Below are positions 4,440 to 21,924 of a DNA stretch of 64,000 nt, piece after piece (the first letter of the stretch is position 1; each line of letters starts with the position of its first letter). Below the pieces are notes generated by a model. The model had not been told where the DNA came from and made no database searches. It worked only from the letters and a program-made list of their open reading frames with translations. Where the stretch lies: NCBI RefSeq assembly GCF_000702665.1, contig NZ_JNJA01000007.1:186001-250000 (forward strand), in the 5' to 3' direction. Made by a program: the position numbers and the translations under genes. This DNA comes from Solidesulfovibrio alcoholivorans DSM 5433 (lineage in GTDB: Bacteria > Desulfobacterota > Desulfovibrionia > Desulfovibrionales > Desulfovibrionaceae).

Positions 4440-4949
4440 TCAGGCAAGGGGCCAAGCCACGCCGTCGCGGGCCGCGATAATGCCCGCAGCATCCGCAGCC
4501 TCCTGGACGGCCTTTTTCCCGGCCAGTCGCGCACGCTCCACCAGCCGGCCGTAATCGCGCCACTTCTCCGCTGCGGCCAGCACCGCCGCCGCCACTTCCG
4601 CCGCGCTGTCCGCGGTCACGCCGATCTCGTTGAAAATGTCCGGATACTCGGCCTCGGTGGGCGTGGGGTCCTGAAGCAGAGCCGTAGCCTGCGCCTCCTT
4701 GGCCTGGTAGGCGGCCATCTGGCCGGCACCGGGCGTCAGCACCGTCTGGCGCAGTCCCTCGGCTTGGGCATCGATGGCCGCGCAGGCGGAAGTCCTGGCC
4801 GCATCAAGGTCGATCGCCCAGGGCTGCCCGATCTCTATGGGTGTGCCGTCGGGGACGGAGAGAACTAAACAACCAGGATAGAGGCCGGAAATATTCTGGG
4901 TGTCGCCATGATATGCCACAATGTCATTGTCAAAGATGATGAGTTGCAT
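4440..4949 (-). CDS. Phage tail-fibre assembly-like protein
   Basis: 169 residues, soluble. The N-terminus (MQLIIFDNDIVAYHGDTQNI) resembles the start of small fibre-associated proteins, and the middle carries an AAYQAKEAQATALLQ segment typical of the DUF4376/tail-fibre assembly class, with an Ala-rich helical C-terminus. Its position as the last gene of the phage block, 8 bp after the beta-helix fibre gene, agrees with a fibre chaperone or fibre-tip role. RBS GGTGGGAAT precedes the ATG. There is no terminator between this gene and the host response regulator. The function is inferred from position and composition. Confidence 0.6.
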   Translation of the reverse strand: MQLIIFDNDIVAYHGDTQNISGLYPGCLVLSVPDGTPIEIGQPWAIDLDAARTSACAAIDAQAEGLRQTVLTPGAGQMAAYQAKEAQATALLQDPTPTEAEYPDIFNEIGVTADSAAEVAAAVLAAAEKWRDYGRLVERARLAGKKAVQEAADAAGIIAARDGVAWPLA

Positions 4950-4957
4950 ATTCCCAC

Positions 4958-6496
4958 CTAGAAAGATGACGATATATAGGAGTTGCTGTTTCCGACCGTA
5001 TTCAAGGCAGGAGAATAATCCGTGCCATTCCCTCGCGTAATCATGTACGCCGTAACGGCCAGGATATTGGACCAGCTGGCCGCCCGGACGCCTATCGTGG
5101 TGCAGTTATCGACAATCGTCAGGACGTTTACCGATATGATGCCGCCGATATACGCGTAAAGTCCATATTGAGTGCCCTTGATCACGCCGCCTTGCACGCC
5201 GACGCTTGCCGCTTCTTGTGCGAAAATCCCGTTTTGTCCTCCGTAGACGATGAGACTACCGACAAACGTTTTGCCCTGGCTCCGGGCTTTCACGGCCGTC
5301 GCTGTCCCGGACTGATCGATGCGTATCCCCGCCAGCAGTTTGAGCCCCTTTAGGATGTCGATCATCACCAGTCCGCTTGCGCCGGACAGCACACACCGAT
5401 TGCACGGCTTGATGACGATGCTGCCGCCGCCGACCGTGGCCGAAGCAATCGTTTCCGCCGCGCACGTGATGACGGTGTTTGTGCCGTCGAAAGCCACCCC
5501 GGAGGCCAGATAGCCACCCTTGAGGCCACTCGTACTGCTGCCAGTCAGGCCGAAAATGTCGCCATCCTGCAGGACGCCCGTTCGGTCGCCGGCCACAGTG
5601 ATCGTCTTGGCCGTGGTGTCGATGCTTGCAATGGGCACAGTCATTTCGGTCGATGTGTTGCCAAGAATCTGGATCTTGTCCGCGTCGGGATGGTCGATGG
5701 TGATCGTGCTCGACACCAAATACGTCCCGTCCGCCACCTGGATCGTCACCGTCACGCCCGAGGCGATCAGTTTGTTGCGGATGCTTGCCAGCGCCCGGGA
5801 GATGGAGGCGAAAGGGGCGTTCGACGAACCGTCACCCGTGGAATCGCTCCCTGTCGTGGCCACATGGAGTGTCGTGTCCGCGGCGATGAGCCCCTTGGCA
5901 GATCCGGCAAGCCCGGCCGGGGTGACGGCTTTATCGACGCAGGCACCTGCCTGCGTCTCGGCCACCGTGGCCAGCTGCACCTTGCCCTTGCCGCCTGTCG
6001 CGGCGTCGGAAACCCAGGCGTCGACCGTTCCCGACGCGTCGGACATGACGATTTTCGTCCCGCCGGGTGTTGCCGTGGCGTTTGCCTGGTCCTGCACGAC
6101 GCGGGAAGCGGCATCAAGGGAAGCCAGACCGGATGCGGCGGCCTTGGAGGCGAGAAACGCATCGATGACGGCATGGCTGTTGGCCCCGACGCCGGAAAGC
6201 GCGCCGTGGGCCACCACGCCGCCATCGGCCGTACCCGTGTGCCCATGGTTGGCCAGCGACGCCGGGATGTCGTTGCCGTGGAGCACGGCCGCAAGATTTG
6301 CCGTAAGCCCGTCGGCATCCAGGGTCAGGGTCACGGTGGTCCGGTCCGCATCGGCGACGTAGAGCGCCGCAGCCACGGTGCCGTAGCGCGCGCCGTCCGC
6401 GCCGCAGTCGGCAAAAATCCGCACGCCGGGCGAAAATTCGGCCGTCCGATCGCCCGTGACGGCAAAAGCGTTCGATTCCAGGAAACTGGCGGTCAT
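4958..6496 (-). CDS. Phage tail fibre with right-handed beta-helix domain
   Basis: 512 residues from an ATG with a strong RBS (GGAGGGAG). The N-terminal ~80 residues probably anchor the fibre. Residues ~85-200 contain segments typical of tail fibres (HGNDIPASLANHGHTGTADG; QLATVAETQAGACVDKAVTP). From about residue 215 a DUF1565/pectate-lyase-like region starts with HVATTGSDSTGDGSSNAPFA and continues with NDGT-type repeats rich in Val, Ile and Gly, as in parallel beta-helices. No glycosidase catalytic motif is identified. It is likely the receptor-binding fibre of the particle. The upstream open frame that extends to 6943 reads through the neighbouring gene in another frame and is not used. Confidence 0.8.
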   Translation of the reverse strand: MTASFLESNAFAVTGDRTAEFSPGVRIFADCGADGARYGTVAAALYVADADRTTVTLTLDADGLTANLAAVLHGNDIPASLANHGHTGTADGGVVAHGALSGVGANSHAVIDAFLASKAAASGLASLDAASRVVQDQANATATPGGTKIVMSDASGTVDAWVSDAATGGKGKVQLATVAETQAGACVDKAVTPAGLAGSAKGLIAADTTLHVATTGSDSTGDGSSNAPFASISRALASIRNKLIASGVTVTIQVADGTYLVSSTITIDHPDADKIQILGNTSTEMTVPIASIDTTAKTITVAGDRTGVLQDGDIFGLTGSSTSGLKGGYLASGVAFDGTNTVITCAAETIASATVGGGSIVIKPCNRCVLSGASGLVMIDILKGLKLLAGIRIDQSGTATAVKARSQGKTFVGSLIVYGGQNGIFAQEAASVGVQGGVIKGTQYGLYAYIGGIISVNVLTIVDNCTTIGVRAASWSNILAVTAYMITRGNGTDYSPALNTVGNSNSYISSSF

Positions 6497-6558: not shown

Positions 6559-6852
6559 TCAGGAGAACCGCGCGCGCACGGCAAGGCACGCCGTGCGGCC
6601 GACGCCGGCCCAGCCGCCGAGCGTCAGCGAGGCCTGGATCCGGTAGACGCCGGCCTCGGCCAGGTCGCCGGCCTTCGTGACGTAGCGGATATGGCGCGTG
6701 ACGCCGTCTTTTTCCACGAGGCTGCCGGCAAAGGCACGCACCGCGCCCGAGGGCGCGCGCACGAGCAGGGCCGGCGCGCCCGCGCCGGCGATGTCCCGGC
6801 CGCAGTCCACCAGCAGTTCGACGCCCGTATCGCCTTGGTAAATGCTGTCCAT
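6559..6852 (-). CDS. Small phage structural protein upstream of fibre gene
   Basis: 97 residues, MDSIYQGDTGVELLVDCGRD at the start, beta-rich with alternating hydrophobic residues (ALLVRAPSGAVRAFAGSLV; VYRIQASLTLGGWAGVG) suggesting an immunoglobulin-like or jelly-roll fold. A GGAG ribosome-binding site lies before the ATG, 11 bp after the stop of the preceding gene. Proteins of this size next to a fibre gene are often fibre-neck or head-decoration proteins, but no specific family is recognised. It is placed here because its start, RBS and spacing fit the operon better than the long overlapping frame. Confidence 0.6.
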   Translation of the reverse strand: MDSIYQGDTGVELLVDCGRDIAGAGAPALLVRAPSGAVRAFAGSLVEKDGVTRHIRYVTKAGDLAEAGVYRIQASLTLGGWAGVGRTACLAVRARFS

Positions 6853-6863
6853 TGCGACTCCGC

Positions 6864-7367
6864 TCAGGTTTGTTCGATTGCGACCAGGGAGGAAAGGACG
6901 ACGGACGGGGCCACGGCGCTCCCGAGCGCGATGCGGGTCGCAAAGGGCGAAACCAACCGCGCCACCGCGCGCAGCCCGGTTCCGGGCAGGGATTGCGGTG
7001 CCGTCAGGGCAAGCACGGCCGCGCCCGGTCTCGCGACGGTTCGGCCGCGCCAGCCGGCAGTCCCGGTATGCCCTTGTGCCTGCGCAGGCGAAGCGTTCGC
7101 CGCCGCGAGGGAGTCTCCCCTTCCCGGACCGGCTGCCGCCCTGGTCCAGGCACGGGAAGCGGCCGCGCGCGCCGCGCCTGCCGTGGTCACAGAACCGCAA
7201 ACCGCCTTGCAGGCCGCCGCCGCGCAGCCGGCGCGGCCCGCGACCGTCACGCCCGCGGCGACCAATGCCGCGCGGCAGGCGGCGATGTCCGTGGCCACGG
7301 CTCCCCCGCCGAAACCGGCCGCCTGATCGGTCCAGGCCGCGATCCCGTCCAGCCATGGCGTCGCCAC
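6864..7367 (-). CDS. Ala-rich phage-cassette protein, unknown function
   Basis: 167 residues starting at a GTG (MATPWLDGIAAWTDQAAGFG) with RBS GGAG five bases upstream; the stop of the preceding gene lies within that RBS, so the two are coupled. The protein is very rich in Ala, Gly and Arg and has several Cys residues (AGCAAAACKAVCGSV), unlike a typical soluble enzyme; no motif is recognised. Codon bias in GC-rich DNA makes such a frame less certain than its neighbours, but the tight packing between genes on both sides supports it. It may be a virion-associated protein. Confidence 0.5.
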   Translation of the reverse strand: MATPWLDGIAAWTDQAAGFGGGAVATDIAACRAALVAAGVTVAGRAGCAAAACKAVCGSVTTAGAARAAASRAWTRAAAGPGRGDSLAAANASPAQAQGHTGTAGWRGRTVARPGAAVLALTAPQSLPGTGLRAVARLVSPFATRIALGSAVAPSVVLSSLVAIEQT

Positions 7368-7369
7368 GG

Positions 7370-7789
7370 CTACTCCAGAACCAGGACGCCGGCCGCGTCA
7401 AAGGTCACGGAGAAGGTGCCGCCGGTCACGCCCACGTCCTGGCCGAAATCGAGCAGGCACAGCAGCGGATTGGTCAGGCCGCCGGCCGTCTTGGCGGCGT
7501 AGACCACGGCGTAGCGCGCCGTGACCGTGGCCTCGGTCCAGGATGGATCGGCGGCGTCGAGCACGGCGGCGTCGCCGGAAACGCCCCAGGTCACGCCGGA
7601 GAGGACCGCGCCGCCTGTGGCGTAGCCCGCGCCCGAGACCTCGGCCGCGACCACGTCGGCGAACGTGGCATGGCCGGAATCCGGCACGTAGGCGTGCGTC
7701 AGGAGCGCGCATTTGAGCGTGTCGGAACCCAGGGCGAACATCCCTTCGCCAAACCCCCGCTTGCAGGACGCATAGATGCGATTGGCCAT
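7370..7789 (-). CDS. Conserved phage structural protein
   Basis: 139 residues. It begins MANRIYASCKRGFGEGMFAL and continues with DTLKCALLTHAYVPDSGHAT, a pattern common to a family of small phage virion proteins in which a short helix precedes (D)TIKVAL.D..Y.P. The rest is beta-rich and ends AAGVLVLE. A perfect ribosome-binding site, CAGGAGGG, lies before the ATG. It follows the long coiled-coil gene by 26 bp and overlaps the next gene's ribosome-binding site. The role (head-tail or fibre-neck component) is inferred from family memory and context. Confidence 0.65.
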   Translation of the reverse strand: MANRIYASCKRGFGEGMFALGSDTLKCALLTHAYVPDSGHATFADVVAAEVSGAGYATGGAVLSGVTWGVSGDAAVLDAADPSWTEATVTARYAVVYAAKTAGGLTNPLLCLLDFGQDVGVTGGTFSVTFDAAGVLVLE

Positions 7790-7815: not shown

Positions 7816-9735
7816 TTAGACCTTGTAATTGTAGTTGTGGTTGTAGCTCTCGCGGTAACCGCTGGATTTTGACGTTGCTTCGCTGACCGAGCGCTGGGTG
7901 GACTCCGTCGTGCTCGTATTTGTGCGTTGTCCGATGGACTCGCTGTAGCCGATCTGCGCCGAGGCGTTGACGGAACTGAGCGCGCTGGCCGCCATCTGCG
8001 CCGAGACCTGCGCGCCGGAGCGGATCTTTTCCGCCTCCAGGCGCAGTTCGCCGAGCGAGTTCTGGAGAAGCATGTCCGCTTCCTTGATCGAAACCTCGGC
8101 GGACTTGAGGTAGGCGTCCACCTGGGCGGCATGGTCCTTGGAGCGCAGGTCGGCCGCGTCGCGGCGGGCGGCGAGCCCGGCCTCGTAGGCGCGCAGCGAG
8201 AGTTCCTTGTCCTTGAGCAGGACTTCGGCCGCGGCCCGGGCCTTGGCCAGGTCGGCCTCGTAACGGCTCACGTCGGCCTTGTAGGCGTCGAGCTTGACCT
8301 TGTTCTCCTCGGCGGACACGGCAAGCCGTGTTTCGGCCGCAGCCTTGGCCGCGGCGACGCGCTCGCCGTAGGCGCGCACCTGCTCGGCATAGACCCGCGC
8401 CTTGGCCTCCTGGCCGGCCATGGCCGCGGCCTGGGCGTTGTAGCGGGCGGTATTGGCATTGACCGTGGCCACGTAGGCCTGCACCTGCGCCTCGTAGGCG
8501 CTGATGCGGTCCCGGCTCACGGCCGCCTTGGCCGCCGCGCCCTCCATGCGTGCCTTGTAGAGCGCAACGAGCGTGGACGCGCCGGAAAGCTCGGCCAGGT
8601 AAAGGTCGGCGGCGCGTTTTTGCGCCTCGCCAGTCAGCCGCGCCCCTTCCAGCCGGGCCTTGTAGGTCTCCAGCTCGGACAGGGCGGCGCGGATGCGCGC
8701 CTCGAACACGGCGGCGTCGGCCTGGTAGCGGGCGAGCTGGGCGTTGTGCACGGCCACCTCGGCGTGCAGAGCCTCGTAGCCGTATTGCGCCAGGGCCTTG
8801 GCCCCGTCGAAGGCGCGGGCGGCCGACTGGTTGAAGAGCTCGATGCCCTGCGCCTCCAGAGCCAGGGAGTCGCTCACGGCGGCCCTGCCTTCTTGCGCGG
8901 CCATGTCCGCCTGTTTGGCCAGGATGTCCAGGTTGCCGGCGGCGACCTTGTCGGCGTGCGCGGCGTAGGCCTGGCGCAGGGCGTCGGCCAGGGGGCCGGA
9001 CAGAGCGGCCGTGCCCCGGGCGGCGAAGCCGTCGGCAAGCTCGGTGAGCCGCGTCGCCAGTTCGTCTTCCAGGCGACTTTTCGCCCGCTCCCACAACCGC
9101 GTTTCGAGTTCCGGGCCGTACCCGGCCCCGCCCGCGCGCACCTCCCCTTCCAGGCGCGCGGCGAGCGCCTGGCGCAGGGAAGAATCGTAGGCCGCCTCGC
9201 GGGGCATGACGAAGAGATTGCCCGGGGCGAGGAGCTCGGGCATGGGTGGCCGCTCGCCCTCGAAGGTCGGGGTAATGGGGCCGGGCAGTTCGGGAATGGC
9301 CACGGGATCGAAAACCGGCGGATCCGGCAGCACGATGGCGGGATCGGCGGGCGTTTCGATCTCAGCCAGGGCCGGCGCGCCGCTCGGGGCCTCGGGCCAG
9401 GCGAGGTCCGGCTCCTCGGGCAGGATCACTTCCGGCGGGACCACGGCGAAGTCCGGCACGGAAAACCCGTCGAGACGCGACGTGGAAAACTCCGGCGCCT
9501 CCGGCGCGGCCACGTCGTCGACGACGACGGCGGCAAGCCCCGGGACGTCGGGCACGCCGGGGTATTCCGGCGTGCGCGGCAGTTCGGGCAGGTCCACGGA
9601 CGGATACGTCAGCTTGGCCACACCGCCCAGACGCTCCAGGAACGTCAGCGCGGAATACCAGGCGTCGCTGGCGTAGTTCTGTGCCGTATCGAACTTGTTG
9701 CGGACAATGCCGGCCGCGCCGGTGGAATCGCTCAT
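7816..9735 (-). CDS. Large coiled-coil phage virion protein
   Basis: 639 residues in two parts. Residues ~45-175 are Pro-rich and acidic with repeats such as PDVPGLAAVVVDDVAAPEAP and PPVFDPVAIPELPGPITP. Residues ~190-600 are an almost unbroken Ala/Glu/Lys/Arg helix with regular Tyr spacing (YKARMEGAAAKAAV; YKADVSRYEADLAKARA), consistent with a long coiled coil. The C-terminus is Ser/Thr/Asn/Tyr-rich and ends SYNHNYNYKV. No enzymatic motif. Its size and shape could fit a tail needle, an ejection protein or a short tape-measure substitute. Its start overlaps the stop of the LamG-like gene as ATGA, so the two are translated together. Confidence 0.65.
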   Translation of the reverse strand: MSDSTGAAGIVRNKFDTAQNYASDAWYSALTFLERLGGVAKLTYPSVDLPELPRTPEYPGVPDVPGLAAVVVDDVAAPEAPEFSTSRLDGFSVPDFAVVPPEVILPEEPDLAWPEAPSGAPALAEIETPADPAIVLPDPPVFDPVAIPELPGPITPTFEGERPPMPELLAPGNLFVMPREAAYDSSLRQALAARLEGEVRAGGAGYGPELETRLWERAKSRLEDELATRLTELADGFAARGTAALSGPLADALRQAYAAHADKVAAGNLDILAKQADMAAQEGRAAVSDSLALEAQGIELFNQSAARAFDGAKALAQYGYEALHAEVAVHNAQLARYQADAAVFEARIRAALSELETYKARLEGARLTGEAQKRAADLYLAELSGASTLVALYKARMEGAAAKAAVSRDRISAYEAQVQAYVATVNANTARYNAQAAAMAGQEAKARVYAEQVRAYGERVAAAKAAAETRLAVSAEENKVKLDAYKADVSRYEADLAKARAAAEVLLKDKELSLRAYEAGLAARRDAADLRSKDHAAQVDAYLKSAEVSIKEADMLLQNSLGELRLEAEKIRSGAQVSAQMAASALSSVNASAQIGYSESIGQRTNTSTTESTQRSVSEATSKSSGYRESYNHNYNYKV

Positions 9736-11291
9736 GACGCCTCCTTGGGGATGGTGATGGCGGTCAGGCCCAACGCGGCGGCCTGGGACGCCTCATGGTC
9801 GTCGGCCACGAACAGGCCGGTCAGCGCCTCGAGTTGCAGCAAATAGGCCTGGGCCGGAGACAGGGCGTAGTGGAAAAAGCGCGGCAGGCAGACGTCCATG
9901 ACCGGATTCATGCGGTATGCGCCGATGGCCGCGTCGGTCGCGCCGTTGTGCAGGGTCCAGGCGTTGACGCCGCTGGCCTGGTAGGCGCAGGCCGCGTCCA
10001 TGGCGCAAAGGGGCTGGCGTCCGGCGTAGACGACGGCGTCGGCCGCGTCTGCGGCGGCGACGTAGAGCCGCACGGCTCCGTCCGCCGCATGGGTCATGAC
10101 CACATGGTGCCACACGCCGCGCGCGATCGGATCGCTGACCGCCGGGGCGTAGCCGAACTGGCTTTCGAAGCGGGACAGGCGCGCGCCGAGGAGCCGATCG
10201 CCGTTGTAGAGGAAAAGCCCCGCCGCCTGCAGGCCGATCACGAAGCCCCAGGGATGGGGATAGGCCGCGCCGCGCGCGTCGGCATAGGCCTCGCCGGCAA
10301 GAAGCGGCGCGCCGTCGCAGGCGGTTTCCACACGCTTCGCGCCGAGGAGGGTTTCCGTATAGGCGGCGTAGTCGGCATTCCAGGGCGCCCAGGGATAGGT
10401 GACTGTGGCCGACCAGTCCGGATGCAGGTGCGGCGAACAAAACCCCAGCAGCGGCGAGATGGAGCCCGGGCACTCCCAGGTGTAGTCCGCGCCGTCGGCG
10501 CTTTGCAACAAATAGACGCGAAAGGGGTTGTACACGCCGCGCGCGTCGTAGGTGTAGTCGTAGTCCAGGGCTTCGCGCAGCCGCACCAGGCAACTCACGG
10601 AAAAGGGCGCGTCGTCCGGGATGTGGTCGCGCCCGAAAAGCAGGCCCGAGGCCGCGCCGCCCGGCAGCACGAACACGCCGCGCCGACGCGCGATGCCGGC
10701 TTCGGGCAGGCCCTCGGGTTCGGCCAGGCCGACCTCGCCCGGGGCAACGACCGTCACGGCGTCGCCAAGGCCCAGGCTCCAGCCGGCGAGCGTTCCGTCC
10801 GTCACGGCGTTTTCCAGGCCGTCTCCGCCTTCGTATCGCGCCAGGCAGTCCGGGATGGCGAAAAAAGAGCCCGCCTCGCGCACTTGTGTCCCGGGCAAGG
10901 CTCTGCGACGCGGCGCGGCCTCCCACCCGGCCGGAGCGAGGATGTCCACGCTGTCGAGGCTCCCGTTGCGGCGGCAGACGAGGGTTTCGCCGCCGGGCAG
11001 GCGCACCGTGCGGGAAAAGACCGGCAGCTCGAAGACGTTTTCCCGGTGCATGACGCCCAGTTCCCGCAACGCCCGCGCGCGCAGCCGGGCCAGGTACGTT
11101 TCGCCGTCCTCGAGGCCCGCGCCGGCGAGCCCGCCGGGGACACGCAGCCGCGCCGTCGGCCGGAAATCCGCTAGCTCCCGGGCCGTCGGAATCCGAAGTT
11201 CCGAAAGCTCCAAAGCATCGAAACCGCCTTCCGCCCCAGAGAGCCCCTCCACGGAGCGCGCGCCTGCCATCGACCGCCCATCCGCGTTCAC
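9732..11291 (-). CDS. LamG-like phage protein (concanavalin fold)
   Basis: 519 residues from a GTG with RBS GGAGG; the start overlaps the previous stop as GTGA. The C-terminal half has the hallmark of LamG/jellyroll domains, IARGVWHHVVMTHAADGAVR followed by LYVAAADAADAVVYAG, which form a carbohydrate- or protein-binding beta-sandwich. The middle contains aromatic-rich stretches (YTWECPGSISPLLGF; SATVTYPWAPWNADY). The N-terminal ~150 residues are structural with no known motif. A surface-binding role on the particle, for adsorption or decoration, is inferred. It overlaps the downstream coiled-coil gene by 4 bp. Confidence 0.65.
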   Translation of the reverse strand: MNADGRSMAGARSVEGLSGAEGGFDALELSELRIPTARELADFRPTARLRVPGGLAGAGLEDGETYLARLRARALRELGVMHRENVFELPVFSRTVRLPGGETLVCRRNGSLDSVDILAPAGWEAAPRRRALPGTQVREAGSFFAIPDCLARYEGGDGLENAVTDGTLAGWSLGLGDAVTVVAPGEVGLAEPEGLPEAGIARRRGVFVLPGGAASGLLFGRDHIPDDAPFSVSCLVRLREALDYDYTYDARGVYNPFRVYLLQSADGADYTWECPGSISPLLGFCSPHLHPDWSATVTYPWAPWNADYAAYTETLLGAKRVETACDGAPLLAGEAYADARGAAYPHPWGFVIGLQAAGLFLYNGDRLLGARLSRFESQFGYAPAVSDPIARGVWHHVVMTHAADGAVRLYVAAADAADAVVYAGRQPLCAMDAACAYQASGVNAWTLHNGATDAAIGAYRMNPVMDVCLPRFFHYALSPAQAYLLQLEALTGLFVADDHEASQAAALGLTAITIPKEAS

Positions 11292-11758
11292 GGCCGCCTC
11301 CGGTCAAGGGGCACGACCGCAAGGGCAATGGCCCCGATGTCCAGGGCCGCACCGTCCACGTTTTCAAGCGCCACCCGCCAGGCCGTGCCATAGCCGCGCG
11401 CGAGCCGCGCCGTGGCCCGGCCGGGGAAATTGCCTTCCCCCGACGGGCCGAGCCGGCCGCAAAGCGACGCGTCGGCCCCGCTTTGCGCCGAGACGGCCAG
11501 TTCGCCCGCAACGACGCCTTCCACGGCCACGCCCACAAGGCGCTTGGCCCCGGGCAGGCCGCAATCCGTGGCCGGCAGGGCCGCGCGGGCGGCAATGGCG
11601 ACGCCTGCGTCGTCGTCGCCGCCCACGCGGTAAAGCCCGTCGGCATCGGCCAGCAGGACCGCGCCGTCATGGACGCAGGCGGCCCCGGACGGCAGGCCGA
11701 CATGGGTCGTAAGCGCGCCGCTTGAAAGTTCCAGGGAAAATCCCAAGGTGGTCGTCAT
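11288..11758 (-). CDS. Phage-cassette beta-rich protein, unknown function
   Basis: 156 residues beginning MTTTLGFSLELSSGALTTHV. The ATG at 11758 is chosen because it overlaps the preceding stop (ATGA) and lies 7 bp after GGAGG; an ATG two codons earlier is too close to that site. The sequence alternates small and hydrophobic residues (GLYRVGGDDDAGVAIAARAA; AWRVALENVDGAALDIGAIA), suggesting a beta-sandwich or short propeller-like repeat. No domain is recognised. It is sandwiched by 4-bp overlaps with the transglutaminase-like gene upstream and the LamG-like gene downstream, so it is probably made in a fixed ratio with them as a virion component. Confidence 0.55.
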   Translation of the reverse strand: MTTTLGFSLELSSGALTTHVGLPSGAACVHDGAVLLADADGLYRVGGDDDAGVAIAARAALPATDCGLPGAKRLVGVAVEGVVAGELAVSAQSGADASLCGRLGPSGEGNFPGRATARLARGYGTAWRVALENVDGAALDIGAIALAVVPLDRRRP

Positions 11759-13594: not shown

Positions 13595-13637
13595 CGAGGT
13601 CACCTGTGCCTTTGTTCCGAGCGTTGCGGCCACGGCC

Positions 13638-14312: not shown

Positions 14313-14870
14313 TTAGAACAGCAGTGCGGTGTCGCCGCCGAGTTGCAGGCGTCCCGTGACCACAAGGCCCCCGGCCGGCATGTCGCCGACGAACCAGGTG
14401 ACGGCGACGCCGCTCGAGGCGTCGGCGTCCTGGACGGTCGCACCCTGGGACGCGACGTCGTCGAGATCGGTGTCGGCCGCCAGGAGCGTGTCCCAGACGT
14501 CCACGGTCTCGAACGCGCGCCGGATGCCGAGCGCCTCGACGCGTACGCCCTTGATCACGGCCAAGGCGTAACGCGTGGAATCCGCGTCCGGCAGGTAGAA
14601 GCGGCCGTAGCCGTAGTGAGAGACTTTGAGGTCGAACACGTCGTCGTCGCCGGTGTCGGAATAAATGATTTCCAGGCTGGGCAGGGCCTGGCCGGAGACG
14701 CAGGCACCCTGCAGGACGCCGCTTTTGGGCGTCTGCGCCAGGTTCACCCGGCTGCCGAAGGAATAGGGCGTGGCCCGGGCCTCGGAAAACGCCCGGCCGC
14801 ACGCGACCCGCACGCGGGCCGGAAAGCCTTCGAAGCGGCAATGCATGGACTGTGGGTAGATCTCGGACAT
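14313..14870 (-). CDS. Conserved phage-cassette structural protein
   Basis: 185 residues beginning MSEIYPQSMHCRFEGFPARV. The ATG at 14870 has RBS GGAGAAGG; a GTG four codons upstream lacks such spacing. The sequence is mixed alpha/beta and acidic in the middle (DTGDDDVFDLKVSHYGYGRF; DTDLDDVASQGATVQDADAS) without a recognised motif. It precedes the discoidin-like gene by 9 bp and follows the small family protein at 14965 with a 94 bp gap. A virion role is inferred from its place among structural genes. Confidence 0.55.
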   Translation of the reverse strand: MSEIYPQSMHCRFEGFPARVRVACGRAFSEARATPYSFGSRVNLAQTPKSGVLQGACVSGQALPSLEIIYSDTGDDDVFDLKVSHYGYGRFYLPDADSTRYALAVIKGVRVEALGIRRAFETVDVWDTLLAADTDLDDVASQGATVQDADASSGVAVTWFVGDMPAGGLVVTGRLQLGGDTALLF

Positions 14871-14964: not shown

Positions 14965-15423
14965 CTAGGAAGCGGGCATGGTCACGGTGAAGCTGTCGAT
15001 AGTGGTGGTCGCGCCGGCGGTAATGGCGGTGCTGCTCATGTTGAGCTGCGCGCCGGAGGTGGAGACCGAACCGTCGAAACGGGCATGGGTCGTGTCCGCG
15101 CCGGTGGTGCGGTCGGTGGCGTAGAAGCGGAACCAGCCCGCCGTGCCCGTGGCCGAGGCCACGCCGGACCAGACTTCGGCAGCGGCCTTGGCGCACGCGC
15201 CGTCGACCGGGTCGTCGAAGTTAAGGCCGTTTTCCCCGGTGCCGGGGCTGAAGGTCCCCGAGGAGACGGTGATTTCCAGAAGCGGCGTCGCACCCTCGGC
15301 GTCGTCGGCGCTGGAGGGCTGCACGCCCGGGAAGAGACGGATCACGCCGTACTGCATGATGCTTTTGAATCCCGAGGTGCCAAGCAGCTTGTTGCGAAGA
15401 CCGGTGGAGAGACGAAGGGCCAT
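14965..15423 (-). CDS. Conserved phage structural protein (LSTGLRN family)
   Basis: 152 residues from MALRLSTGLRNKLLGTSGFK with RBS AAGGAG. The sequence follows a widespread phage structural family whose members begin L.TGLRN.LLGT....I...G.IR...G.QP.SADDAE and end GAQLNMSS..I..GATTTIDSFTVT.P, both of which are visible here. Those proteins are beta-rich virion components, often near fibre or head-decoration genes; their exact role is not established. The upstream extension to 15456 is rejected because the RBS fits this ATG. Confidence 0.7.
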   Translation of the reverse strand: MALRLSTGLRNKLLGTSGFKSIMQYGVIRLFPGVQPSSADDAEGATPLLEITVSSGTFSPGTGENGLNFDDPVDGACAKAAAEVWSGVASATGTAGWFRFYATDRTTGADTTHARFDGSVSTSGAQLNMSSTAITAGATTTIDSFTVTMPAS

Positions 15424-15462: not shown

Positions 15463-16371
15463 CTAGGATTTGAGGAACAACAGGTATCGGCCACTCCCGG
15501 CCACGGCGCGGGCCCGGGCGGCGGGGATGCGGGCGGCGGCCAGGCGCGTGACCCGGCCCGAGGGCAGGCCCAGGTACACGCCGTCGCGGCCGGCCCAGAC
15601 GGCGGCGTCGCCCGTGAGCTCCCGACCGGCCACGGCATCATGGCGGCCGGCGGCCAGGGCGGCGTCGCTGCCGGCAAGGGGTGGCACGGGGCTTGCCCGG
15701 ACAAAGGTCATGGTTTTCGGGTCGGTGCCGGCGGCGAAGATCACGCCGGCGGCGTCGCCGACGAAAAGCCCTCCGGCCACGGGCCGCAGCATGCGCACCC
15801 GGCCCGTGGCCGGCGGCAGGTAGCCGGCCAGGGCATCGACCCAGTCGTTGAGCCCGGCCCCGGCGGTGAAGCGCACGAGCGCGCCGTCGGCGATCCATAT
15901 CCGGCCGGCGAACGCGGCCAGCAGATGCCCGGCGGGCGGCGCGACGTAGCGCCCGTGGCGGTCCGGACCGGGATAGCGCCCGCCGCCCCAGGGCTCGGCC
16001 GCGCCGTCGCGGATGCGGCCATTTTCGAAGCCGTTGGCAAAGTAGACGTCCGCGCCGACGCCGAGGAAGGCGACGTCCGCGCCGGGGGTCAGGCCCTCGC
16101 GCAGCACGCGCGGCTGCCCCCCGGCCGGGACACGCAGGATCGCGCCGTCGCGCGCGGCATAGAGGTCGCCGTCGTGGGCAAAAAGGGCCTCGTAACCGCC
16201 CTCCCCCAGCCGGACGTACCCCGGCCGGCTCCTCAGCCTCCCATCGACCACATCGACGTTGACGGCCTCGGCCAGGGCATAGGTTCCCTTGTCCGGGTCG
16301 CAGGCGAGCCCCAGGGGCGACGCCGACGCGCCAAGCCCGAGGCAGCGGGTCAGGCGACACTCCCGGCTCAC
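15463..16371 (-). CDS. Propeller-like phage hub protein, P22 gp10-like
   Basis: 302 residues, GTG start overlapping the previous stop (GTGA) with RBS GGAGG. It opens with a statement of parameters typical of podoviral hub/stabilisation proteins (NVDVVDGRLRSRPGYVRL) and then shows repeated short blades such as ALFAHDGDLYAARDGAI, DVYFANGFENGRIRDG and IWIADGALVRFTAG, as expected for a beta-propeller. In P22-like phages such a protein plugs the portal and carries tail fibres. The homology to gp10 is a suggestion from layout and the RSRPG segment, not a computed match. Its place after the adaptor-like gene fits this role. Confidence 0.55.
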   Translation of the reverse strand: MSRECRLTRCLGLGASASPLGLACDPDKGTYALAEAVNVDVVDGRLRSRPGYVRLGEGGYEALFAHDGDLYAARDGAILRVPAGGQPRVLREGLTPGADVAFLGVGADVYFANGFENGRIRDGAAEPWGGGRYPGPDRHGRYVAPPAGHLLAAFAGRIWIADGALVRFTAGAGLNDWVDALAGYLPPATGRVRMLRPVAGGLFVGDAAGVIFAAGTDPKTMTFVRASPVPPLAGSDAALAAGRHDAVAGRELTGDAAVWAGRDGVYLGLPSGRVTRLAAARIPAARARAVAGSGRYLLFLKS

Positions 16372-17081
16372 AGCCAGCCCTCCCCGAAGGCGCCGGGCAC
16401 GTCCACGGGCTCGGCCTGGACCGTCGCCGGGCCGTAAAGCCCGACCAGCTCGGCCAGGGCGGCTTCGTAGCGCGCGGCATAAGCCTGGGTCTGCGGTTTC
16501 CTGCCTTCGGCCCCCTCCTCCAGGCGCTCGAAAAGCTCCCGGCAGGCAAAGGAGACGAGGAGCCTCCCGGCCAGGTGCGGCGGCAGGCAGGATGGCTTGT
16601 CGGCATACCCGGCCAGGGGGTCGGGCAGGCGGTAGTAGCCGACGGCGATCTCCACGGACGTTTGCGGCACGGGCAGCACATGGAGCCTTCCCGCGCCGGG
16701 GGCGGCGAAGCGCACGGGACCGTTGGCGGCAAGGCGCGAGGTCCGCCGCAACGCGGCCGGATCGGACAGGATGCGGATCCGGCCGCGCCCGGGGAGGAGG
16801 AAGGCATCGGTCGGGCCGTGCTGCAAGTCCGCCGGCAGCGCGGCATGTTCCTGCCCCGGTCCGAAGGGGAGCCGGGATTCGGTAGCGAGGGCCGGCAGGC
16901 GCGTGGCCGCGGCGGCACCCAGAAGCCCGCGCAGCAAGGCGCGCGCGACCTCTTCTTCGCCGACCGCGGGGTCGTCCACAATTGCCGTCACCTCGGCCAC
17001 CAGCGCGCCCAGGGCGTCGGGGCAGGCGCTGCGCATCCCCTCGGCCGCCGTCCGGGGCAGAAAGAGTCGAGCCTCGGCCAT
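16368..17081 (-). CDS. Phage head-tail adaptor-like protein
   Basis: 237 residues with RBS GCGGAGGAA. The sequence is largely helical at the N-terminus (AEVTAIVDDPAVGEEEVARAL) and C-terminus (YAARYEAALAELVGLYGPA), with a beta-rich centre (GPVRFAAPGAGRLHVLPVPQ), similar in architecture to proteins that connect the portal to tail components. The gene lies between the capsid-associated gene and the hub gene, the position of adaptor/tail-accessory genes in podoviruses. It overlaps the hub gene by 4 bp. No enzymatic motif. Assignment is by position and architecture. Confidence 0.5.
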   Translation of the reverse strand: MAEARLFLPRTAAEGMRSACPDALGALVAEVTAIVDDPAVGEEEVARALLRGLLGAAAATRLPALATESRLPFGPGQEHAALPADLQHGPTDAFLLPGRGRIRILSDPAALRRTSRLAANGPVRFAAPGAGRLHVLPVPQTSVEIAVGYYRLPDPLAGYADKPSCLPPHLAGRLLVSFACRELFERLEEGAEGRKPQTQAYAARYEAALAELVGLYGPATVQAEPVDVPGAFGEGWL

Positions 17082-17133: not shown

Positions 17134-17853
17134 CTAATCGAGGGTCAGGAAGCAGGGCTGACAGCGGCCGTCGGTGAAGGCGGCGGCAAAGGCCACACCG
17201 GTCACGGGCTGGTCGGTGTCCAGGGTCGCGTTCATGGCGGACAGACTGCCGGGTGCGGCCCCGGGCACGAGCATGCTGCCGACCGGAGCCGCGCCGGCGG
17301 CCAGGCAGCAGGCCACGCCCCCGGTCTGGGCGAAGTAGTAGTGCCCGGCGGGCACGTCGCAGGGCGCAACGCCCACGGGCAGATTCTCCTCCGTGGCCGA
17401 GGCCGTGACCCCGCCCCAGGGCGAGGGCACGAGGGAGATCTTGGAATCGACCGTGAGCGCGGCGCGAAGCGGCTCGGCCAGCGTCAACACCACCGTCCCG
17501 CCCGCGGCGCAGGCCGTGTTGGAGAGGATGCGGCACTGCATGCCCTTGCCGGCGGCGTCGGCCACCTGGAGAAAACCGTCCTCGTAGGCGTTTTCGGCCA
17601 CGGCCGATGCGCCCACGGTGAGCGACAGCACCCGGTCGCCGACGGCGGCCGGCGTGGCGGCCAGGTTCTGGTGCGCGGCCACGGCCGCCGGGGCCAGACC
17701 CAGGGTGCCGGCGGCGAGCGAGGCCGCGCCGGCCTTGGCGTAACGGAACTTGCGGCCGTCGGCGGTGATGCGCAGCGCGCCTACGGCTTCGCGCTTGGCC
17801 GGCGAGGTTTCGGCCACGTCCTGGGTGAAGCTCAGTTTCATGGGCTGGGCCAT
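17134..17853 (-). CDS. Capsid-associated (decoration-like) phage protein
   Basis: 239 residues with RBS GGAGGAAAAC. It begins MAQPMKLSFTQDVAETSPAK, then GRKFRYAKAGAASLAAGTLG and a beta-rich body with AYEDGFLQVADAAGKGMQCR and SPWGGVTASATEENLPVGVA. This pattern (sample parameters, Y.DG.L.V.D..G.G..Y.I, then P..GV) is familiar from proteins encoded right after HK97-fold capsid genes in phages of environmental bacteria. A decoration or capsid-stabilising role is likely but unproven. It follows the capsid gene by 35 bp. Confidence 0.65.
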   Translation of the reverse strand: MAQPMKLSFTQDVAETSPAKREAVGALRITADGRKFRYAKAGAASLAAGTLGLAPAAVAAHQNLAATPAAVGDRVLSLTVGASAVAENAYEDGFLQVADAAGKGMQCRILSNTACAAGGTVVLTLAEPLRAALTVDSKISLVPSPWGGVTASATEENLPVGVAPCDVPAGHYYFAQTGGVACCLAAGAAPVGSMLVPGAAPGSLSAMNATLDTDQPVTGVAFAAAFTDGRCQPCFLTLD

Positions 17854-17888: not shown

Positions 17889-18860
17889 CTAGGACAGGTT
17901 GGAATGGCAGGCGTGGGCGCGGCGGTTGGAGCAGATGAGGTTGCCGTGCCAGAGGATCTTCATGGAGCGGCCGGCCGGTCCGGCGAGATCCACCCAGGGC
18001 TGGCGGGCGAAGAAGCCGTTCTGGTGCACGGCGAATCCCAGGTAGTTGGTATTGAGCGCGAACAGGTGGCCGGCAGGGCAGTAGTCGTCGGCGGCCACGA
18101 CCATGCCCTCGTAGACGAGGTGGGTGAAGCCGGCGCTGGCCACCCCGTCGTCGGTGACGAAGCGCTGCTGTACCTGGAGGATGCGCGAGACCTTGTTGTA
18201 GAGGGACTCGGTGGTGACGGCGATGTTGGGCTTGCCGTCGCGGCCGTCGGAGACCTTGGCCGCGCTGCGCAGCTCCTGGAGCACCTCAAGGCTCACGGTC
18301 GCGGCGTCGGAGACGGTCACGCCCTTCCAGGGCTTGGTGCCGTCGGCGGCCAGCAGGTCGTTTTCGGCGATGCCGCCGTAGGCTTTGTCGGCGTCCGCGC
18401 TGGTCAGGGCGCGCAGGCCCGTGAGCGTCGGGGCCTCGTCGCCGGCGGCGGAATAGAGCGTGGCCGCGAGCCAGCTCGAGCAGGTGCGCTGGGCGGTCTC
18501 GATCTTCTGGGTCACGAACTGCACGGCGGCATAGTCCCCGGCGGCGGCCACCTCGTCGGTCAGGTAGACGGTGGCGTTGCCGTAGGCGTGCTTCCAGTTA
18601 TAGGCGGCGGCGTTGACCGTGACCCGGTCGTCGCTGGACAAGGTGTCCGAGCGGGTGAAAAAGCCGCCCTCGGCGTCGGAGTAGTTGAGCGGCACGCGGA
18701 TCCTCTCACCGCCGCCGGGCCGCTCGAACAGGCCCGCCTGGCGGTTCATGAGCAGGTCCAGGAGGAAGGAGTTGCGGAAGTAGATGTCCACGGCCTTACC
18801 GCCGGCGGCGGCGAAATAGTCGCTGGTGATGGACTCGATTTCGGTCATCGAAAGGGACAT
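17889..18860 (-). CDS. Phage major capsid protein (HK97 fold)
   Basis: 323 residues, RBS AAGGAGGAGA. The N-terminus (SITSDYFAAAGGKAVDIYFR, then LLDLLMNRQAGLFERPGGGE) and the run of RIRVPLNYSDAEGGFFTRSD match the arms of a common phage capsid family. Later segments, NIAVTTESLYNKVSRILQVQ, GFTHLVYEGMVVAADDYCPA, LFALNTNYLGFAVHQ and ILWHGNLICSNRR, are hallmarks of that family's C-terminal half. It forms the icosahedral shell. It lies between the scaffold-like gene (18 bp upstream) and the decoration-like gene. Full length with no frameshift, so capsid assembly may still be possible. Confidence 0.88.
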   Translation of the reverse strand: MSLSMTEIESITSDYFAAAGGKAVDIYFRNSFLLDLLMNRQAGLFERPGGGERIRVPLNYSDAEGGFFTRSDTLSSDDRVTVNAAAYNWKHAYGNATVYLTDEVAAAGDYAAVQFVTQKIETAQRTCSSWLAATLYSAAGDEAPTLTGLRALTSADADKAYGGIAENDLLAADGTKPWKGVTVSDAATVSLEVLQELRSAAKVSDGRDGKPNIAVTTESLYNKVSRILQVQQRFVTDDGVASAGFTHLVYEGMVVAADDYCPAGHLFALNTNYLGFAVHQNGFFARQPWVDLAGPAGRSMKILWHGNLICSNRRAHACHSNLS

Positions 18861-18878: not shown

Positions 18879-19418
18879 TTAGACGCCGGCGGACTGGCGG
18901 CGGGCGGCAAGACGGGCGGCGAGGACGGCATTTACGCCGCCGAACTTCTCGGGCGCGGCCAGGTCGGGATCGACGCCGCGTCCCCGCCCGGCGTCGGCCG
19001 GGGCGACGCTCAAGGTGCGCGCCAGCCCCTTGGCGCGGAAGCGTTCCATGGCCCGGGCCTCGGCCGCGGCGGCAGCTTCCTGGCGCGCCGTTTCCAGGGC
19101 GGCGGCGTGTTCCTGGCGCTCGGCCTGGAGATGGTGGGCGAAATACGCGCCCACGTCGTCGAGGAGCCCGTTGGCGCGCTGCTGTGCCTCCAGGGAGCCG
19201 TCCGCGGCCAGGCTGCGGAAATCCGGGTGTTCGGCCACGAAACGGTCCATGAGGGACTGGCGCTCGACTTCGCGACGCCGTGCGTCCAGGGCGTCGAGGC
19301 GGTTTTCGAGCAGCGCGTCCAGGCGTTTTTCCAGTTCGGCGAAAAACGGTTCCACGGCGGACAGGCCGGGATCGACGGACACGGCCGGTTCGGGCGGCGC
19401 GACGAAAGTGGCTTCCAT
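18879..19418 (-). CDS. Phage scaffold-like protein
   Basis: 179 residues, acidic at the N-terminus and strongly helical between residues ~25 and 130 (AELEKRLDALLENRLDALDA; RQEHAAALETARQEAAAAAE), with a basic Arg-rich C-terminus (LAARLAARRQSAGV). This size, charge pattern and position between portal and capsid genes are typical of assembly scaffolds, whose basic C-terminus binds capsid subunits. No protease domain is seen. RBS GGGGAGG. The call depends on context and composition. Confidence 0.65.
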   Translation of the reverse strand: MEATFVAPPEPAVSVDPGLSAVEPFFAELEKRLDALLENRLDALDARRREVERQSLMDRFVAEHPDFRSLAADGSLEAQQRANGLLDDVGAYFAHHLQAERQEHAAALETARQEAAAAAEARAMERFRAKGLARTLSVAPADAGRGRGVDPDLAAPEKFGGVNAVLAARLAARRQSAGV

Positions 19419-19494: not shown

Positions 19495-19860
19495 TCAGGA
19501 CGCGGCGCGGCGCGCGGCGAAGCGGTCCAGGACTTCCCGGGCGATCTCCGGCCGGGGCGCGGGGGCGCGGCGGCCTTCCCCGGCTTCCTGGGGACGCAGG
19601 CCTTCGCCGGCCATCCAGCGGCGGTAGTTGGCGCGGCTCGGGTCGGCAAGAAAGGCGCGTACGTGGGGTTTGGGCGAGTCCTTCTCGACCACGGCGGTCA
19701 CGGACCCAAGCCAGTCGGCGTCGGCGCGGTAGCCCCGTCCCACCGAGACGAGGCGTTTCGCCGTTCCGCCGCAGGCGCATACGGCCTCGACCTCCTCCAT
19801 GCCCGCCATGGCCTCGAACACCCGCCCGCAAACCCGGCACTCGAAGTCATAAAGCGGCAT
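19495..19860 (-). CDS. FmdB-type zinc-ribbon protein in phage cassette
   Basis: 121 residues starting MPLYDFECRVCGRVFEAMAG. The CxxC (CRVC) and later CAC pair form a FmdB/putative regulatory zinc ribbon, followed by a basic, helical C-terminus (RYRRWM-like region, then EIAREVLDRFAARRAAS). FmdB-family proteins are small metal-binding proteins of unknown function that often appear in phage and host genomes. It overlaps the portal gene by 14 bp, and its upstream region is occupied by a host-type palindromic repeat. A second FmdB gene lies at 52519 and is not phage-linked. Confidence 0.75.
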   Translation of the reverse strand: MPLYDFECRVCGRVFEAMAGMEEVEAVCACGGTAKRLVSVGRGYRADADWLGSVTAVVEKDSPKPHVRAFLADPSRANYRRWMAGEGLRPQEAGEGRRAPAPRPEIAREVLDRFAARRAAS

Positions 19861-21640
19861 GCTTCCCCTCCCCCTCCTTCTCGGGGGTCCGGGGGGGATA
19901 ATCCCCCCCGGCCGCCGGAGGCATCTTTCCTCTTTTCTCTCCTCCTCCCCCATCTCCCCCCTCGCCCATGCGCCCGAGCACGGCGGCGCGGCCGGACCAG
20001 TCGAGCTTTTCGAGGAGATCGCGGCGGTCGATGGCCCCCATTTGATAGAGACTCAGGGCCTCTTCGCGCTGCTGCACCTTGGACACGGGCATGGTGGAAC
20101 CGGAAACGACGGTCAGGCGGGCGGGCACGCGGCAGCGCGCGCCGTGAAGCGGAGCCACGGCGGCGCGGCCCTCCTCGGTGAAGCTGATCCAGCGTTCCTC
20201 GGTGTACCAGTTCTGCATGTGGCTCAGAAACATCCGGCCACGTTCGCGAATGAGGCGCGAGTAGTTGCGGATCTTGCCGCGCAGCAGCGTCGCGGCCTGT
20301 TCGATGAGCGCGGCGATGGCCCGGTAGGCGATGACCGGCCGGTCGGGCGCGGCGGCGCGCTCCAGGTCGGACAAGCCCGAGATCTGGCTGAACAGCTCGC
20401 GGTAGAGGGCGAGAACACTTTCGATGTCCTTGGTGTTGTTGACGAATTCCAGGTAGCGGATGCCCTGGGCCGCGGCCATGGACGTGGGGTTGACTATCCC
20501 TAAGCGGTTGGTGAAGGCGGCGTTGGCCACGCCCGAGTCCCGGGGGTTGATGATTTTCGGCCGGGCGCAGCGGTCCTTGTGGGAGGTGAGCTGGGCGAGG
20601 CACTTGTCGATTTCGTATTGCAACTCGGCGAGTTGCTCGAAATCCGACGCCCCCCAGAGACTGACCGGATCGGTCAGGGAATTGGCCAGGGCAAAGGGAA
20701 AGCGGTCGTAGAGGTAGGTGGCCATGGCCTCGTCCGGGGCCAGGGCGGGATTGACCGAGGGATTGGGCCGGTCGTCGAGCACGAGCCGCCCGGCGCTGGC
20801 CACGGTGACGCAGCGGATGGAGCCCGGATAGCGCGGGCCGTCCCCGGTCATGGTGTAGTCGCGCACCCAGCATTCGCAGACAAGGGCCGTGTCCTCGCTT
20901 GGAGCCGCCGCGCCGCTTGCGCCGGCAAGGCTTCTGAGCACCTCGCCGAAGCGCGAGAAGAGCCCGCGCCGGGACCCGTCACCCGTGGCCATTTCCTGGC
21001 GGTTGTCGCCGAGGCTCGCCAGGAGCGCGGCGTCGCTTTGGATCTTGCCGGAGGCCTGGGGCCAGCGGCGTGCGACCTCGCGCAGGGGCATGGGCGTGAA
21101 ATGCAGCACCGCGGCGGCGTCGCGCAGGTCCAGGCAGTCGGTCGGGAACACGCCGAAAGCGAAGGGATCGACGACCACGGTGCGCACCTCGCCGAGGCCG
21201 TACTCGAGGTCCGGGTCGAAGACGACCTTTTCCACGGCCACGCCGTAGGTCTCGCCGTTTAGGACCGAGCGCTCGAACACGGCCTGCTGCTCCTGTTCGG
21301 TCCACCAGCAGGCGGCGGCGCGCTCCAGGGTGCGAAAGAGCGTATCATCGCCGTTGGGGCCCACCCGCGTGACGTTGAAGGTGGGGTTGTTGTCCGTGAG
21401 CATGTTGACGGTGCGCTGGCGGTGCAGGTGCAGCAGGTTGGCCGAGGCCGCGCCGGTCGGGGCTGTTCCGCGCCAGGCGCGGTTTCGGCCCAGGCGGTAA
21501 TGACTGGTCCATTTTTCGGCCAGGCCCAGGCGGGCCTTGTCGGCGACCACGGCCTCGAGAAGCTCGAAAACGCGCGGTCCGACCAGATCCGGGCGCTCGG
21601 CCGGGGGCAGCAGTTCGCCGGAGCAGGCGGCAACGGCCAT
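19847..21640 (-). CDS. Phage portal protein with repeat-derived C-terminus
   Basis: 597 residues. Portal-like features: LHLHRQRTVNMLTDNNPTFN and WTEQEQQAVFERSVLNGETY near the N-terminus, a long central domain with YPGSIRCVTVASAGRLVLDD, and FALANSLTDPVSLWGASDFE then EIDKCLAQLTSHKDRCARPK in the stem/clip region, as in P22-type portals of environmental phages. The dodecameric portal is the DNA entry pore. The start overlaps the previous stop by one base. The last ~30 residues (from about 565) are low complexity and are encoded largely by the repeat at 19870-19940, so the true core probably ends near RMGEGGDGG. Confidence 0.85.
   Translation of the reverse strand: MAVAACSGELLPPAERPDLVGPRVFELLEAVVADKARLGLAEKWTSHYRLGRNRAWRGTAPTGAASANLLHLHRQRTVNMLTDNNPTFNVTRVGPNGDDTLFRTLERAAACWWTEQEQQAVFERSVLNGETYGVAVEKVVFDPDLEYGLGEVRTVVVDPFAFGVFPTDCLDLRDAAAVLHFTPMPLREVARRWPQASGKIQSDAALLASLGDNRQEMATGDGSRRGLFSRFGEVLRSLAGASGAAAPSEDTALVCECWVRDYTMTGDGPRYPGSIRCVTVASAGRLVLDDRPNPSVNPALAPDEAMATYLYDRFPFALANSLTDPVSLWGASDFEQLAELQYEIDKCLAQLTSHKDRCARPKIINPRDSGVANAAFTNRLGIVNPTSMAAAQGIRYLEFVNNTKDIESVLALYRELFSQISGLSDLERAAAPDRPVIAYRAIAALIEQAATLLRGKIRNYSRLIRERGRMFLSHMQNWYTEERWISFTEEGRAAVAPLHGARCRVPARLTVVSGSTMPVSKVQQREEALSLYQMGAIDRRDLLEKLDWSGRAAVLGRMGEGGDGGGGEKRGKMPPAAGGDYPPRTPEKEGEGKHAAL
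19870..19940 (-). repeat. Dispersed palindromic repeat, copy 1 (inside portal frame)
   Basis: Minus strand: AAAGATGCCTCCGGCGGCC then the palindrome GGGGGGGATTATCCCCCCC and GGACCCCC. It shares this layout with copies at 22665, 38508 and 44683. In this copy it encodes portal residues about 571-586 and ends just upstream of the FmdB start. The palindrome differs from the 44683 copy by paired changes (C/G for A/T), which keeps the stem. Confidence 0.75.
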
Positions 21641-21924
21641 TATTTTCCCTCCTTGCGGCGACGGGTAGCCGGGGTTGCGGGGGCGGCGGGAAGCACGAAC
21701 GCGCCCGCGTCGGTTTCGAGGCTGTCCGCGCCGGCCGGCTCGTAGCCCTGCGGGTGGTGTCCGCAGTAGGGGCAGCGGGCGTGGGCGAAGGCGGCCTCGG
21801 GATCAAAGGGCGGGGGGAAGCCGGGCTCGAGGGGACCGAACATGGCGCCGAGAAGCGGCAGGCGGAGGTCGGCGGGATCGAAGGCGGCGATGGAGGCATG
21901 GCAGAGGCGGCAGCGCAGGATCAT
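21640..21924 (-). CDS. Small CxxC zinc-ribbon protein preceding portal
   Basis: 94 residues from MILRCRLCHASIAAFDPADL with RBS GGGGAGA; an upstream TTG would add 31 residues but lacks support. Two CxxC pairs (CRLC near the start, CPYC at about residue 54 in HARCPYCGHHPQGYEPAG) suggest a zinc ribbon. Its stop overlaps the portal ATG by one base (TAATG). In complete phages the terminase usually occupies this position; here it is absent and this short gene is the first in the cassette. It may be a regulator or a packaging-associated remnant; the function is unknown. Confidence 0.65.
   Translation of the reverse strand: MILRCRLCHASIAAFDPADLRLPLLGAMFGPLEPGFPPPFDPEAAFAHARCPYCGHHPQGYEPAGADSLETDAGAFVLPAAPATPATRRRKEGK

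Follow-up and report, generated by a model that had tools for sequence, protein, structure and literature searches.

Why would a chromosome keep, open and in order, the genes for a virus particle at a place without a terminase to fill it? The question is raised by a 64,000-nucleotide stretch of Solidesulfovibrio alcoholivorans DSM 5433 (contig NZ_JNJA01000007.1, positions 186,001 to 250,000, here G000:C7:186001-250000), hereafter the window, in which a cassette of virion genes runs on the minus strand from position 21924 down to 4440. We think it likely that this cassette encodes the virion part of an old podovirus-derived particle that the host has domesticated, whose co-regulated genes are distributed over two or more loci and which resembles a gene transfer agent (GTA), most likely one of independent origin. 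The comparison covered 199 genomes of the family, of which 14 including our own were taken as Solidesulfovibrio (below, the genus) and three form the group g41; the own assembly comprises 5.13 Mb in 65 contigs, with an estimated contamination of 7.78%. Six named records have a close major capsid protein (MCP): five, at 88-95% identity, belong to Solidesulfovibrio or Desulfovibrio sp. DV, and one, at 76%, to an unclassified Desulfovibrionaceae.

An earlier note on the window had seen nothing for packaging, which does not hold for the genome as a whole: a Pfam terminase search found a second locus on contig C1, at 350.7-356.9 kb. It contains a phage-type S24 repressor and a Mor-like activator, a gene with a receiver domain, one small lipoprotein-like gene, two genes with a weak likeness to a zinc ribbon and to a holin respectively, a membrane/coiled-coil gene, and the small and large terminase subunits (TerS and TerL). 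Family matches were 3.1e-31 for TerS (Terminase_2), 2.2e-7 for Mor and 2.2e-17 for S24, and the Mor-like gene also matched phrog_836, annotated as 'late transcriptional activator' (1.6e-10). The GpA-type terminase (PF05876) had zero matches in the own genome. TerL is present in all 14 genus genomes, in all three of g41 and in G016; five other genomes carry more distant matches. The ratio of nonsynonymous to synonymous substitution (dN/dS, by the Nei-Gojobori method here and below) of TerL is 0.07-0.25 (9 pairs). The same right-hand neighbours, t22/t24, occur in all 12 genus relatives whose contig extends past TerL. Candidates for lysis are the weakly holin-like gene and a weak candidate at a third locus. 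A second, distant TerL-like gene (G000:C3:60000-79999, L105; 40% identity over part) perhaps belongs to another prophage.

The cassette and the terminase operon are preceded by the same motif, listed here with its position in the window:

21978-22015, minus strand: shared promoter-proximal motif GACGCGAACTGGCTGGTTCCTGTCCGCTTTGCATGGAC, which precedes the cassette; the sole other copy found in the genome, G000:C1:353203-353240, stands before the terminase operon

When the upstream regions of both operons are aligned, they share the block GAC-N4-ACTGGCTGGT-N3-TGTCCGC-N4-CATGG, and the spacing between the motif and the operon's first gene is almost constant. With up to 3 mismatches allowed, a 36-bp form was found at two places in the own 5.13 Mb, one per operon and both with 0 mismatches, and its reversed control at 0 places. 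When the 199 genomes were scanned with a degenerate 38-bp form, every one of the 14 genus genomes had it at both loci, at 0-2 mismatches; for G174 and G181 the cassette site came from a separate look at those contigs. In g41, G041 and G088 each have both sites at 2-3 mismatches.

The trees of the two halves also follow each other, with 12 of 13 splits common to the cassette and terminase trees and a patristic correlation of r 0.989. Compared with the host gene aspS, the cassette shares 9 of 13 splits (r 0.947) and the terminase 12 of 15 (r 0.895). Co-occurrence, conserved neighbours, the shared motif and the trees strongly support one option raised in the earlier note, a partner locus that supplies the terminase to a gene-transfer-agent-like element. 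Its other option, a storage or delivery particle without DNA, is disfavoured by the co-inherited terminase and is unsupported because the terminase co-occurs with the cassette, co-evolves with it and shares its promoter motif. The distance between TerL and the MCP is approximately 620 kb (G080), 427 kb (G121), 264 kb (G025), 88 kb (G088) or 8.5 kb (G069); since the parts are hundreds of kb apart in most closed genomes, one particle would probably not carry the whole element, and its cargo would be mostly host DNA.

A codon-usage gene caller finds 19 minus-strand genes in the cassette; most overlap or are separated by a few bases, and most have a Shine-Dalgarno-like sequence in front. The earlier description of an intact, one-stranded run of open genes with overlaps and ribosome-binding sites therefore stands, and its count of 21 is reduced to 19: the two extra open reading frames in the gaps (6864-7367 and 13391-13840) have patchy similarity only in relatives and no PHROG match, and are doubtful as genes. 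As also claimed there, terminase, integrase and endolysin found no match in the cassette, whether among PHROGs (19 of 19 genes) or in Pfam (15 of 19, without g6, g7, g17 and g21). From the first gene to the last, and with the divergent neighbour g23, the features are:

22207-22623, plus strand: g23, divergent gene adjoining the cassette, as in 13 of 13 genus relatives
21640-21924, minus strand: g22, first cassette gene, zinc-ribbon-like, 94 aa (phrog_2451, 2e-4; a second family match is weak)
19847-21640, minus strand: g21, portal protein, 597 aa (phrog_156, 6e-20)
19495-19860, minus strand: g20, zinc-ribbon protein (Zn_ribbon_8, 3.7e-10)
18879-19418, minus strand: g19, between portal and capsid, no family match; from its position, a putative scaffold
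17889-18860, minus strand: g18, MCP of podovirus type (NCBIfam NF033394, 207 bits, cut-off 80)
17134-17853, minus strand: g17, conserved virion-region gene, no PHROG match
16368-17081, minus strand: g16, SU10-type adaptor (connector) (PF24175, 1.1e-13)
15463-16371, minus strand: g15, head closure Hc3-like (phrog_8040, 6e-20)
14965-15423, minus strand: g14, virion structural protein (phrog_3758, 6e-24)
14313-14870, minus strand: g13, virion-region gene, no family match
13638-14303, minus strand: g12, virion-region gene, no family match above cut-off
11755-13404, minus strand: g11, 549 aa, transglutaminase-like domain (PF01841, 3.2e-9)
11288-11758, minus strand: g10, virion structural protein-like (phrog_26502, 4e-6)
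9732-11291, minus strand: g9, 519 aa, weak lectin-like match below cut-off
7816-9735, minus strand: g8, 639 aa, phage family of unknown function (phrog_10969, 4e-84)
7370-7789, minus strand: g7, phage family of unknown function (phrog_644, 1e-27)
6559-6852, minus strand: g6, small conserved gene, present in the G121 prophage (below) too
4958-6496, minus strand: g5, tail-protein-like, at the variable cassette end (phrog_4577)
4440-4949, minus strand: g4, last cassette gene, at the variable end (phrog_32459, unknown function)

By eye, g23 has a hydrophobic segment and the look of a coiled coil, with a weak Rz-spanin-like match (E 0.0047). The structure model of the MCP was poor (predicted local distance difference test score, pLDDT, 56) and was not used.

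The MCP is present in 18 of the 199 family genomes, namely 13 of the 14 genus genomes including our own, the three of g41, one genome of g17 (52% identity) and one with a weak match, and by genus it was found in 4 of the 44 searched in the family, one of them weakly. Genus MCPs have no internal stops, and the gene is single-copy in each of these genomes except G121, where a second copy (72% identity) lies within a prophage. The one genus genome without an MCP match is a 69%-complete draft in which the start of the cassette is still present at a contig end. Flanking genes g1-g3 are conserved in all 9 relatives whose contig reaches that far, and g23 in 13 of 13; the span from g3 to g23 is 17.7-19.8 kb in the 8 relatives with both flanks in one stretch and 19.1 kb in our own, which leaves no room for missing phage modules. 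Among the 11-13 genus cassettes with covering contigs, the coverage filter removed none of g6-g22, and lengths agree within approximately 17%, with differences above 10% only in g6, g22 and, where present, g5. The dN/dS of the MCP is 0.02-0.14 (8 pairs) and that of the portal gene g21 is 0.09-0.27 (6 pairs), similar to host neighbours g3 (0.11-0.22) and t24 (0.04-0.29); it is <1 throughout.

By these comparisons the cassette is under purifying selection at the same locus genus-wide, in keeping with the selection suspected earlier, and values near 1 across the cassette were not seen. A recent large deletion of an ordinary prophage, an alternative named in the earlier note, is rejected: the same terminase-less arrangement occurs at the same locus throughout the genus with dN/dS <1, none of the genus relatives examined carries a complete prophage there, and the prophage of G121 lies elsewhere.

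Constraint is looser at the fibre end (4440-6496; the same end in L034, L036 and L046-L047). Here the synonymous divergence (dS) of g4/g5 is high, at 0.39-1.35 vs 0.06-0.33 for the MCP, and no complete copies of the two genes were found at this spot in G058, G121 and G080, which suggests exchange of recipient- or target-binding genes. PBSX is a particle that packages host DNA and acts as a killer without delivering usable DNA. A domesticated particle of that kind, with the same genes and control, which would package host DNA, kill competitors or siblings and deliver no usable DNA, is the main rival of the GTA-like reading. Its genomic signature would be identical to that of a GTA, and a variable, fast-evolving g4/g5 fits a strain-specific weapon. 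Fibre variation also fits the choice of recipients, however, and the computation gives no separation of the two; we hold this rival to be unlikely.

The terminase locus also carries what looks like a switch. The Mor-like activator was matched in 16 of the 18 genomes searched (the match in G167 is weak and probably another gene, and in G041 the activator is in two overlapping pieces), and the S24 repressor divergently adjoins it in 15 of the 16 activator loci, even where the pair is away from the terminase. The gap between repressor and activator holds GGAATATTATTCTTGACAAATATTCC over a TTGACA box, and 11 of 17 genomes have a single exact copy of the operator pattern. The repressor keeps the motifs GDSM and IKRL, which we take to contain the catalytic-type Ser and Lys, and because these are kept, RecA-stimulated self-cleavage is possible. 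We propose that the repressor would hold the divergent activator off through the inverted repeats over the TTGACA box. Once it is removed, perhaps by such self-cleavage, the activator would be made and would turn on both late operons with the 38-bp motif, that is, the virion genes from g22 to g4 and the TerS/TerL operon. The terminase would then fill heads with DNA, and the cells would lyse, perhaps by a lysozyme-superfamily enzyme from the third locus, for which the case is weak; the packaged DNA would be mostly that of the host, which would make the particle gene-transfer-agent-like.

A similar arrangement is described for Caulobacter crescentus in passages of PMC9632790, where RogA, a LexA/CI-like S24 protein, represses gafYZ at inverted GGAA-N4-TTCC repeats at the promoter and GafYZ drives a 21-gene main virion cluster together with distant loci. 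The activator here differs in being of the Mor family, and the repressor in keeping GDSM/IKRL, whereas RogA is reported in the same passages to lack key residues.

The persistence of these parts bears on whether the element is the remains of a prophage, integrated in the ancestor of the genus and slowly decaying without current function. Such remains would account for the separated loci and for the absence of integrase, transposase and replication genes among the proteins scanned at both loci with PHROGs and Pfam (the helix-turn-helix, HTH, of the repressor has one weak match, 8e-4, to the transposition-protein family phrog_296), as well as for a lysin candidate broken in some genomes and a TerL in two frames in one draft. 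Against them stand the near-constant lengths of g6-g22, the dN/dS values, and the retention of the motif (both loci, 14 of 14 genomes) and of the regulator pair (15 of 16 loci); we regard prophage remains as very unlikely.

Whether the loci might instead belong to an active phage or satellite complemented in trans, each of them separately mobile, depends in part on G121, which carries a complete-looking related prophage besides the split element (G121:C1, approximately 0.70-0.74 Mb; L038, L039, L106 and L107, approximately 675-755 kb). Its MCP is 72% and its TerL 68% identical to those of the element, and the order TerS-TerL-g22-portal-g20-MCP is the same. It differs in forming one contiguous run, with a gene that is muramidase-like by eye and opposite-strand genes upstream, in a portal of 765 aa vs 597 here, and in a 1973-aa virion-region protein without match among the window genes. 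This prophage falls outside the clade of genus and g41, at 100/100 in the cassette tree and less firmly in the terminase tree. Homologues of the transglutaminase-like g11 occur in relatives and in this prophage. Such a prophage could in principle complement the two loci, but these have the same chromosomal neighbours genus-wide and no integrase among the scanned proteins, and their trees agree with one another and, in broad outline, with that of the host, so that a trans-complemented phage is highly improbable.

Further relatives of the MCP were found at 23 IMG/VR loci (48-72% identity), of which IMGVR_UViG_3300048577_000433 (39.7 kb; L217, L218) has two MCP copies in opposite orientation, 70% and 72% identical to the query. 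At E 1e-5, matches came to 7 of 50,697 phage records and are very distant; among GenBank viruses, MetMV (Methanosarcina), Mx9 (Myxococcus phage) and BUCT555 (Stenotrophomonas phage) share 23-32% identity over 86-96% of the query, and the portal matches MetMV only, at 24%.

In the same wider bacterial group, Dd1 is said to be the GTA of Desulfovibrio desulfuricans, reportedly described by Rapp and Wall in 1987. The element resembles Dd1 as a tailed-phage-derived particle with TerS (in Dd1, Ddes_0720 of Table 1 in PMC6854486) just upstream of TerL; it differs in that Dd1 TerS is listed there with 125 aa and GTA TerS are reported to be without a DNA-binding domain, whereas TerS in the genus has 181-248 aa and such a part. 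Portions of PMC9662315 define GTAs by tailed-phage-derived proteins; full endogenisation, often over multiple loci; mostly vertical inheritance with host co-diversification; genes not fully packaged in one particle; encapsidation of mostly random host DNA; and delivery of that DNA. The first three of these six were found here: family matches of the MCP, portal, adaptor, TerS and TerL to tailed phages; two loci with the same neighbours genus-wide and a shared motif; and vertical inheritance as judged by trees and patristic correlations, with aspS as the only host gene and four conflicting splits. On this evidence the element is GTA-like and a candidate member of the class.

Several observations weigh against a split, co-regulated and GTA-like element. 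We infer by association that both operons are co-regulated and that the Mor-like protein binds the motif; the particles, the packaging of host DNA, its transfer and the control steps we likewise infer, from sequence. G069 has no pattern match at either locus, only aligned look-alikes, and in this genome repressor, activator, terminase and cassette all lie within approximately 30 kb, an arrangement that may be the older one and in which a single particle might hold the entire element. Beyond the genus and g41, the 38-bp form was matched in 29 of 182 genomes (2-3 mismatches) vs 44 of 182 for the reversed control, and such matches are therefore at chance level; within the genus, extra matches at 3 mismatches occur in G058 (4), G097 (2), G121 (2), G133 (1) and G174 (1). 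The exact operator pattern is absent from 6 of 17 genomes, with variants visible in G097 and g41.

The trees rest on 8 of the 19 cassette genes, three terminase genes and aspS alone for the host; four splits conflict with the host tree at 40-71% bootstrap, one of them with a value of 98 in the SH-like approximate likelihood ratio test (SH-aLRT), and in the terminase tree the clade of the genus (g1) with g41 has a support of only 57/56. Rows below 60% query coverage had been removed ahead of dN/dS, trees and length counts, which left g4/g5 in 7 of 13 genus cassettes, and constraint is weaker in g4 (dN/dS up to 0.81), t18 (0.71), g11 (0.65) and g22 (0.61). TerL is in two overlapping frames in the draft G167, and G016:C40 (L052, L053, L103) holds a partial, rearranged relative, looking like a decaying prophage, in which TerL is followed approximately 15-19 kb on by portal and MCP among unrelated genes.

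TerS adds to these points. The own protein has 194 aa and matches Terminase_2 positions 1-133 of 141, and its HTH-like N terminus aligns with the TerS of the G121 prophage, the DNA-binding part being retained; since GTA small terminases are reported in parts of PMC11841831 to lack this N-terminal domain, packaging may be non-random. A tentative extension, which we rate as rather unlikely, is that an independently domesticated podovirus-derived GTA has become fixed in this genus of sulfate reducers under a DNA-damage-type S24 repressor and a Mor-like activator, and that its TerS domain would have the chromosome packaged from preferred start sites, making it a directed transfer system owned by the host.

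The lysis step is a further weak point: endolysin found no match in the cassette or the C1 terminase locus, and the candidate lysin was rejected as a firm third locus. Its homologues occur in 12 of 14 genus genomes, three g41 genomes and G027, and are absent from G109 and G167; the gene is in two pieces in G143 (split by approximately 1.4 kb), has 2 stops in G097 and 1 stop in one of the two G174 copies. The motif precedes it only in G025 and G143 (2 mismatches), with a CATGGACT-like part remaining in several others. No Pfam, PHROG or NCBIfam match was found; one phage match is annotated as peptidoglycan-binding protein, and one PDB sequence match has E 0.69. The predicted fold gave a best Foldseek E of 0.93, and a later comparison a Z of up to 7.0 to MltE (root-mean-square deviation 4.1, 133 aligned), which is no more than suggestive of a lysozyme-superfamily-like enzyme. 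In G025 the candidate lysin closely follows a gene with a DnaJ domain (L141 4900-6923); the split lysin match of G143 is at L142 5769-6716.

According to parts of PMC11841831, GTAs outside the Alphaproteobacteria are few and only cursorily characterised, and among the matches listed from the open-access PMC literature none describes a Solidesulfovibrio GTA, as judged by titles and the opening words of abstracts. The candidate presented here occurs throughout a genus of sulfate reducers, isolates among them, and because its loci, operator and pair of regulators are named, its induction, packaging and transfer are open to direct tests. Pairing an orphan virion cassette with a distant terminase through a genome-unique shared promoter motif and agreeing trees is a general approach, which helps to separate domesticated elements from prophage ruins.

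ARAGORN called a transfer RNA for Arg inside the cassette, at 7559-7632; as it has no Rfam match and is absent from the 18 relative stretches scanned, the call is probably false, and its use as an attachment site is unsupported. Both operons open with a small, weakly zinc-ribbon-like gene, at 21640-21924 of the window and at G000:C1:353266-353511.

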